From contig JAIEEQ010000005.1 in the NCBI GenBank assembly GCA_029067355.1, positions 1 through 51,513 of the forward strand: a DNA stretch of 51,513 bases, in the 5' to 3' direction. Below are positions 15,500 to 35,664 of the stretch, one piece after another (position 1 is the first letter of the stretch; each line of letters opens with the position of its first letter). Made by a program: the position numbers and the translations under genes. The notes under the pieces were generated by a model. It was not told the origin of the DNA. It saw only the letters and a list, made by a program, of their open reading frames with translations, and ran no database searches. Origin of the DNA: Anaeroplasmataceae bacterium (lineage in GTDB: Bacteria > Bacillota_I > Bacilli_A > Acholeplasmatales > Anaeroplasmataceae).

Positions 15500-15549
15500 G
15501 ATTGAATAAAGCATAAAATTTTGATAAAATAATAAAGTATATAAAATAT

Positions 15550-15780
15550 GATGATGAAGGACAAGTAACAAAGCAATGTTATGAAAGAGAAGAGGAAGAT
15601 AGGTGCGAGCCTCACATAAATAGCTTTGTGAATTCACCTTTGGAGTGATGCTAATACCATCCGTAGCTGGGCGTTAACCAAAAAAATGAGTGCTATAAGT
15701 TTTTATAGAACTAGGGTGGTACCACGGAAAGCATATTTCGTCCTTAGAAGATTATTCTTTTAAGGACTTTTTATTTTTAA
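15550..15780 (+). promoter_or_regulatory. T-box riboswitch for pheST (tRNA-Phe)
   Basis: The leader contains the T-box sequence AGGGTGGTACCACGG (15713-15727), which pairs with the uncharged tRNA acceptor end. Upstream is a stem I region with GTGAATTCACC, where TTC (a Phe codon) followed by A is the expected specifier. Downstream is a terminator stem GTCCTTAGAAG/CTTTTAAGGAC (15740-15767) and TTTTTATTTTT. Uncharged tRNA-Phe should favour the antiterminator and turn on pheST. The left boundary is approximate; an AT-rich promoter lies at about 15520-15549. Confidence 0.93.
15740..15778 (+). terminator. regulated terminator of the pheST T-box
   Basis: An 11-bp stem (15740-15750 with 15757-15767, one G-U pair), a 6-nt loop and a T-rich tract, placed directly after the T-box sequence and just before the pheS SD. 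Confidence 0.85.
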
Positions 15781-34082: not shown

Positions 34083-34111
34083 TTGACAAATTGAGTGAAA
34101 AATGATAAAAT
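34083..34111 (+). promoter_or_regulatory. sigma-A promoter of the mepA-like gene
   Basis: TTGACA (34083-34088), 17-nt spacer, TAAAAT (34106-34111). It drives a leader of about 120 nt that contains an internal terminator. Confidence 0.8.
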
Positions 34112-34115
34112 AATT

Positions 34116-34236
34116 AGCGTCGAACAGCAACAAAACGGCGTAGAATTTCGTCAAGATTTTCTATGCCGTTTTTTCTATTCTTCGTAGGTTTCAGACGCTC
34201 TTTACTCTGAGAAAGACGAATACTTTTTAGGAGAAT
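34116..34236 (+). promoter_or_regulatory. structured leader with attenuator before a MATE pump (possible guanidine-IV riboswitch)
   Basis: The leader contains AGCGTCGAACAGCAAC, a terminator hairpin AACGGCGTAGAA/TTCTATGCCGTT (34134-34170) with a T run, and then GACGCT (34194-34199), which complements the start of the leader. A promoter-proximal terminator between promoter and gene implies transcriptional control. Guanidine-IV (mepA motif) riboswitches occur upstream of exactly this transporter family and use a terminator, so that class is my leading guess; I could not match the consensus base by base. Confidence 0.5.
34133..34174 (+). terminator. internal terminator in the mepA-like leader
   Basis: Eleven or more pairs with one G-U (AAACGGCGTAGAA with TTCTATGCCGTTT), 13-nt loop, followed by T residues; located before the ORF rather than after one. 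Confidence 0.88.
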
Positions 34237-34239
34237 ATT

Positions 34240-35664
34240 ATGAATGATAAACAGAATTATGAAGCCTTAGGAAAAGAAAAAATCTCTAAGCTGATGGTTA
34301 AATTTTGTATTCCGTGTATACTATCCTTGCTGGTAAGCGCCTTATACAATATTGTTGACCAAATTTTCGTTGGAAATAGCGAATTATCTACATTAGGAAA
34401 TGCCGCAACAGGAGTAGTGTTTCCAATATTTATTATAGCTCAAGGCTTTGCATGGTATTTTGGTGATGGTGTAGCGGCATATATTAATATCCACCAAGGC
34501 AAGAAAGATACAGAAAAAATTCACAAATGTGTAGGAACTGGAATGGTGCTTACTCTAATTGCAAGTGTCCTTTTATTAGCCATATTTTATCCACTTAAGA
34601 TGAAAATCCTTATGCTATTTGGTGCATCTGAAAATAGTATTGGCTATGCAGTAGAGTACTTCAATATCATCCTTGGATTTTTCCCAATTTATATGCTATC
34701 TAATATGATTAATGCCGTAGTTCGTGCAGACGGAAGTCCATCTTGGTCTATGCTTTCTATGCTTGGTGGAGCAATTGTCAATATTATTCTTGATCCAATA
34801 TTTATCTTTGCCTGTAAGTGGGGAATGTCTGGTGCCGCATGGGCTACTGTAATAGGGCAGGTTGTTTCATTTGTCATTTCAATTGCTTATCTATTTCGCT
34901 CAAAAACCTTCCGTCTTTCTCTAAAAAGCTTTATTCCTGATTTGAAAGAATATGGAGAGGCCTTTAAGCTGGGAATTTCCTCCCTAATTACTCAAATGAC
35001 AATAGTTGTTATTTCTCTTGTTTGCAATATTATGCTTGCTAAATATGGCTCTATGTCAAAGTATGGTGTGGATATTCCTATTGCCATCATAGGAATTGAA
35101 AGTAAGGTATTTACAGTAGTAATTAATATTGTTGTAGGCATTGTGCTTGGTTCTCAGCCCATCATAGGATATAACATGGGATTAGGAGATTATGGCAGAG
35201 TCAAAAAGCTATATCGAGCAATATTACTTTCAACACTTGTTGTAGGACTGCTTTCCACAATTCTATTTGAAGCTGCTCCTGATGTGGTTGTAGGAATGTT
35301 TGGTAAGCCAACCAATATACCCAATCCTGATGATTATTGGGAGTTTGCACGCTTGACCTTCCGAATTTTCCTTGCACTAGTTACATTTACTTGTACGATA
35401 AAAATGACCTCTATATTTTTCCAAGCTGTGGGTAAACCAGTATTTGCTGTGTTAACATCTCTTATAAGAGATATCATCTGCTTTGTTCCGTTGATTTGTA
35501 TTTTACCAATATTTCAGGGCATAAATGGAATTTTGATTTCTGCGCCAATTGCAGATTTAATTGCTATGCTTGTAACAGCAATTTTGACAATTTTATTTTT
35601 TGTTCAGCTTGACAAAACGGGAAATCCAGTTCCAGAAGAAGTAGTAAATATTATCAAAAAATAA
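34240..35664 (+). CDS. mepA: MATE-family efflux transporter (MepA-like)
   Basis: 474 aa with 12 membrane helices. The N-terminal ISKLMVKFCIPCILSLLVSALYNIVDQIFVG and the mid-protein GAIVNIILDPIFIFACKWGMSGAAWATVIGQ are MepA-type MATE hallmarks. Such proteins expel cationic drugs, and guanidinium-like compounds when under a guanidine riboswitch. SD TAGGAGA before ATG 34240. Monocistronic, with leader control upstream and a terminator downstream. Confidence 0.93.
   Translation: MNDKQNYEALGKEKISKLMVKFCIPCILSLLVSALYNIVDQIFVGNSELSTLGNAATGVVFPIFIIAQGFAWYFGDGVAAYINIHQGKKDTEKIHKCVGTGMVLTLIASVLLLAIFYPLKMKILMLFGASENSIGYAVEYFNIILGFFPIYMLSNMINAVVRADGSPSWSMLSMLGGAIVNIILDPIFIFACKWGMSGAAWATVIGQVVSFVISIAYLFRSKTFRLSLKSFIPDLKEYGEAFKLGISSLITQMTIVVISLVCNIMLAKYGSMSKYGVDIPIAIIGIESKVFTVVINIVVGIVLGSQPIIGYNMGLGDYGRVKKLYRAILLSTLVVGLLSTILFEAAPDVVVGMFGKPTNIPNPDDYWEFARLTFRIFLALVTFTCTIKMTSIFFQAVGKPVFAVLTSLIRDIICFVPLICILPIFQGINGILISAPIADLIAMLVTAILTILFFVQLDKTGNPVPEEVVNIIKK

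Follow-up and report, generated by a model that had tools for sequence, protein, structure and literature searches.

The window analysed here is a stretch of 51,513 nucleotides from an Anaeroplasmataceae bacterium, in which a gene for a MATE family efflux transporter is preceded, on the forward strand, by a leader of approximately 120 nt. The first-pass annotation had described a strong promoter, a leader with a strong terminator and then the MATE gene, and all three are present (34083–34111, 34132–34174 and 34240–35664, respectively). The protein passes the cut-off of the MATE model TIGR00797; with the MepA equivalog model it scores 117.8 bits, far below the cut-off of 850, and the gene is not a MepA equivalog. 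Elsewhere in the window, positions 15542–15748 hold a T-box leader (Rfam RF00230, 103.7 bits). The features of the MATE locus are as follows.

34083–34111, + strand: promoter TTGACA-17-TAAAAT with an extended −10 TG, matching 11 of 12 consensus positions
34116–34121, + strand: AGCGTC, left arm of an outer repeat, specific to the window and overlapping the P1 5′ strand (from sequence and fold)
34119–34124, + strand: P1 5′ strand GUCGAA, at or no more than 2 nt from the inferred transcription start (conserved; covaries with the terminator loop)
34125–34128, + strand: CAGC, unpaired and invariant (100% in 54 aligned leaders)
34132–34145, + strand: terminator stem, 5′ strand, containing GCGUAGAA (34138–34145), which is invariant on the 5′ strand only (from fold and alignment)
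34147–34152, + strand: P1 3′ strand UUCGUC in the terminator loop, with one U·U mismatch to GUCGAA in the window (from the alignment; mismatch read off the sequence)
34159–34174, + strand: terminator stem, 3′ strand (34159–34172), and U-tract of six T (34169–34174) (from the fold)
34178–34219, + strand: element 2, UUCUUCGUAGGUUUCAGACG-CUUU-loop-AAAG-ACGA, between terminator and start codon (from homologues; putative masking of the Shine–Dalgarno sequence)
34194–34199, + strand: GACGCT, right arm of the outer repeat (from sequence and fold)
34229–34233, + strand: Shine–Dalgarno sequence AGGAG (read from the sequence)
34240–35664, + strand: MATE family efflux transporter gene, 474 amino acids (TIGR00797 score above cut-off)

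The window leader folds with an energy of −31.1 kcal/mol, compared with −14.8 ± 2.7 kcal/mol for dinucleotide shuffles (z = −6.0), and the main feature of the fold is a terminator hairpin of 14 bp (34132–34145 with 34159–34172), which was missed by a terminator scan because the loop limit of the scan is 8 nt. The outer repeat AGCGTC/GACGCT, suggested at first pass to form an alternative structure, is present and takes part in the minimum-energy fold, but it is not kept in homologues; the chance occurrence of a 6-nt inverted repeat inside approximately 85 nt is not rare, and we dropped the repeat as a conserved alternative structure because it is specific to the window. What exceeds chance in the window leader is instead a conserved core.

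This core was found in the leaders of homologous pumps. A search of genome contigs with the MATE protein gave 80 loci at 55–81% identity, 79 of them with upstream DNA, and 69 of these 79, from Clostridia, Anaeroplasmataceae and other Bacilli and mostly from gut metagenome-assembled genomes (MAGs), carry the sequence 5′-GUC(R)AACAGC-N3-12-GCGUAGAA-loop(CGAC)-UUCUACGC-U-tract, where UUCUACGC is the complement of GCGUAGAA and the loop may also read UUUGAC, CGGC, AGAC and others. A sequence pattern detected the core at 66 loci and a covariance model, R1, added L035 (hairpin part only), L045 and L064; R1 gives the window leader 47 bits, the window being among its 57 training sequences. The window contains a single instance of the string CAGC-N3-12-GCGTAGAA, and none of 100 shuffles contains any. 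The 54 leaders that were aligned show one hairpin; pairing along its stem reaches 97%, and its outer and apical pairs include compensatory changes. In Rfam 15 neither the window leader nor its homologues matched any family at gathering or permissive thresholds, and we found no report of the motif there or in the main texts of the literature. The leader apparently belongs to a real, conserved attenuator family, undescribed in Rfam 15 and in those main texts, and we are highly confident that the family is a conserved regulatory RNA.

The core lies at a fixed distance from the promoter. In 68 of 72 leaders the initial G of the motif comes 6–8 nt after the −10 box ends. Promoters matching at least 10 of 12 consensus positions precede 81% of leaders, compared with 3% of shuffles; judged from this spacing, the RNA would start at the GUC of the motif or 1–2 nt ahead of it. 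The GUCG at this 5′ end can pair with the CGAC in the apical loop of the terminator, a pairing that we call P1 and that is formed in 96.3% of the cells of the 54-leader alignment. Double changes that preserve it include UA to CG (L089 and L130), CG to UA and GC to AU, with 13 double-change cells observed against 2.5 after shuffling, and further variants among the Bacilli (GUCU/AGAC and GUCAA/UUGAC) also fit. Control alignments in which the partner strand was slid by one column reduced pairing to 10–37%; a slide of three columns left 75–80% of the remaining cells paired, with lower covariation. Two observations count against the model. Four Bacilli leaders (L065, L066, L069 and L073) have at most two to three P1 pairs, and in the window P1 reads G-C, U·U, C-G, G-C, A-U and A-U, one mismatch in six, with a nascent pairing probability of only 0.07. 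More generally, the computed energy of nascent RNA folded with P1 only is near zero, with a pairing probability of approximately 0.5. Because the P1-only fold is at best marginally stable, a stabilising factor would be needed, which we count in favour of the model. GUUC of element 2, present in many homologues, is an alternative partner for the 5′ end, with less clear support than P1.

The strongest clue to the mechanism is an asymmetry in the terminator stem. Its outer pairs vary on both strands, whereas in the inner eight pairs the 5′ strand, GCGUAGAA, shows no change in 432 alignment cells and the 3′ strand shows 38 in 432, mostly to G-U, these cells coming from sequences related by descent and the counts not being independent events. 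Were termination the only function of the stem, changes would be expected on both strands, so the asymmetry points to a second role for GCGUAGAA; its one-sided invariance suggests that the 5′ strand is also recognised elsewhere, together with the equally invariant CAGC, as expected if it also took part in an antiterminating fold. The simplest other context for GCGUAGAA would be the growing transcript at a stage when the 3′ strand has yet to be made.

These features bear on the reading in which nothing switches and the hairpin is a plain terminator of an upstream transcript, or the repeat a DNA operator. The terminator is indeed strong, and GUC...GAC is an inverted repeat in DNA as well as in RNA, but in almost all homologues the pump has its own promoter upstream of the hairpin, the covariation follows RNA pairing, G-U included, at variable spacing, and the invariance of CAGC and of one side of the stem would be left unexplained. 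We consider this reading very improbable.

We propose instead that the leader is a switch, working as follows. The transcript would open with GUC(R)AACAGC, and these first nucleotides would pair with the future loop, (UUY)GAC, while the polymerase is still copying the 5′ half of the terminator. The resulting helix, P1, would close a loop in which both invariant segments, CAGC and GCGUAGAA, lie. Stabilisation of this fold by a ligand or another factor would withhold GCGUAGAA from its 3′ partner and let the polymerase continue to the pump gene. In the absence of such stabilisation the 14-bp terminator, the second of two presumably exclusive folds, would form and transcription would end. Element 2, further downstream, would probably add translational control.

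As to the stabilising factor, it might be a protein rather than a small molecule, whether an antiterminator or, on the model of put-type RNAs, the RNA polymerase. The position of the motif at the very start of the transcript, its highly conserved sequence and its single target gene per genome would all suit a protein, but nothing speaks positively in favour of one, and we regard this as unlikely, if deserving of consideration. In switches of this kind the usual stabilising agent is a ligand and a pump is a usual target, and it is for this reason that we read the leader as an attenuation riboswitch of the ON type. The 5′ leader unites a conserved RNA with an intrinsic terminator and with a conserved pairing that would compete with it, the combination by which transcription-attenuation riboswitches are recognised, and the first-pass annotation was right in describing an attenuator leader that resembles a riboswitch. 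Our favoured interpretation, held with moderate confidence, is that the leader is a cis-acting attenuator, most likely a candidate ON-type riboswitch, with a putative ligand related to the substrate of the pump. Because a single gene family is associated with the motif, gene context is uninformative on the ligand. A fuller claim, that the leader represents a previously undescribed candidate riboswitch class of approximately 55 nt, acting from the first nucleotides of the RNA, sensing the exported compound and stacking a terminator on masking of the Shine–Dalgarno sequence, we advance more tentatively, at slightly less than even confidence.

The case for the second of these stacked controls comes from element 2, a sequence of approximately 40 nt with 46 distinct homologous copies and a mean column identity of 85% in the 41 that were aligned; it is mostly absent from the Bacilli group L065–L081. 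It contains a small possible hairpin (CUUU-loop-AAAG), and RNAalifold returned no structure for the element, the sequence of which varies too little. Either its loop (CUCYGA) or its tail (CUCC) can pair with the Shine–Dalgarno sequence, most clearly in L003, L004 and L006 (CUCCGA with UCGGAG) and in L002 and L005 (CUCUGA with UUGGAG), so that element 2 may mask the ribosome-binding site. Pairing energies between element 2 and the Shine–Dalgarno sequence differ little between own and cross-species combinations, and translational control is for this reason offered as a suggestion. At one locus (L045:1177–1900) an insertion sequence, of the IS200/IS605 type by its open frame, separates the terminator from element 2 and has left both in place.

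Antibiotic-inducible resistance genes can be attenuated by ribosomes that translate a leader peptide, and element 2 raised the question of such a mechanism here, since in some homologues it holds a short frame that starts AUG/UUG-UUC-UUC. However, neither the window nor the consensus core has a start codon ahead of the terminator, and among homologues the frames in element 2 are broken by changes of CAG to the stop TAG, as well as by length differences of one base. We dropped the leader peptide because the frames are not conserved, and we judge this mechanism to be most unlikely.

The first-pass annotation had raised the possibility of a guanidine-IV riboswitch. In both guanidine-IV and the Gd4v motif a pseudoknot links two hairpins, of which the one on the 3′ side is the terminator (PMC7736828, PMC9788692, PMC12186494), and in such a mechanism guanidine, or a relative of it, would stabilise the loop–loop pseudoknot and block the terminator. 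There are likenesses. The guanidine-IV (mepA or GGAM-1) motif is likewise a terminator leader before genes for MATE/MepA-like and other exporters and a presumed ON switch, with a 5′ element that pairs into the terminator loop, as P1 does here, but it has its own separate 5′ hairpin and a loop–loop contact (PMC7736828, PMC11611296). Gd4v is also an orphan attenuator, enriched in the gut and with MATE genes among its targets, but it has an extra hairpin on the terminator besides its two hairpins and is found mostly before a transaminase gene (PMC9788692), whereas the present motif has one hairpin and precedes MATE genes only. In the window leader nothing is folded ahead of the terminator, the motif starting, unpaired at approximately +1, 6–8 nt past the −10 box; the covarying contact is between a single-stranded 5′ end and the terminator loop, and the conserved nucleotides appear to be different. 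As one hairpin with a 5′-terminal strand lacks the defining architecture, we do not file the leader under guanidine-IV and take it to be another RNA motif, although it may work similarly, by way of a 5′ element entering the terminator loop.

The guanidine families of Rfam 15 gave no match with the leader at gathering level or at E ≤ 10, yet that release may well not include a guanidine-IV model, and the guanidine negative therefore counts for little. The same search found eight guanidine-I riboswitches upstream of Clostridia SMR exporters. A positive control for guanidine-IV by way of SMR genes met almost no SMR genes in the first group of genomes and guanidine-I only in the second. A search of the genome of the window at E ≤ 1e−15 yielded no SMR guanidine exporter, and the motif precedes this MATE gene only, never occurring in the SMR loci examined. 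Taking likenesses and differences together, we think a guanidine-IV or Gd4v identity very doubtful. Approximately 90 nt upstream of one SMR gene (L148) lies a two-hairpin leader that ends in a terminator and has no Rfam hit; it may be a guanidine-IV riboswitch.

Small pseudoknot riboswitches such as preQ1-I, and the HMP-PP (thiS) riboswitch, which is embedded in a terminator, are likewise very small, with a pseudoknot or a terminator strand shared with the aptamer. By description they differ from the window leader, in which the 5′-terminal strand enters the terminator loop, in both sequence and topology, and these families gave no Rfam match in these leaders.

A switch made by pairing the extreme 5′ end of an RNA with the loop of its own terminator would be unusually economical, and such an architecture would bear on the origin of guanidine-IV-like mechanisms. 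If the leader binds a ligand, gut bacteria would possess in it a compact orphan riboswitch serving a single efflux pump. Identifying the ligand would point to a compound that they must expel, and a reporter made from the leader would help to reveal the natural substrate of the pump.

The motif is rare, occurring before one gene group and mostly in gut metagenome-assembled genomes. Searches with R1 covered 395 genomes from the class of the window, 391 from the class of L007 and 399 from the phylum of L007 (approximately 1,180 genomes). Among the hits inspected, those scoring clearly precede this MATE group, normally once per genome, and the weaker ones (E above approximately 1e−6 to 1e−5) look like ordinary terminators. 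Twelve of the 13 genomes reached through the loci have the motif, each as a single copy where it was expected, and a second, partial match in one of the 13 is a different hairpin. Within the genus of the window the genomes with the MATE gene have the motif, and three genomes without the gene have no genuine copy. The motif is absent from four leaders (L154–L157) of plasmid-borne MATE relatives of less than 60% identity.

The genome of the window encodes a second MATE paralogue (60% identical; contig C55), the leader of which (L169:1–260) has ACAGC and a sequence like element 2, with no clear terminator and no match to R1; from its sequence it looks like a decayed copy of the window leader. Finally, six MAGs carry, before the same MATE group, another conserved terminator leader with no Rfam hit, GACACAUGUG...GCGCGUAAAUCUGAUCACGGUACGCG...CAUGUGUC-U-tract (L040, by eye; L043:1883–1951; L044:1880–1947; L053:223–314; L054:1878–1946; L057:1900–1981), which is possibly a second type of switch for the same pump.
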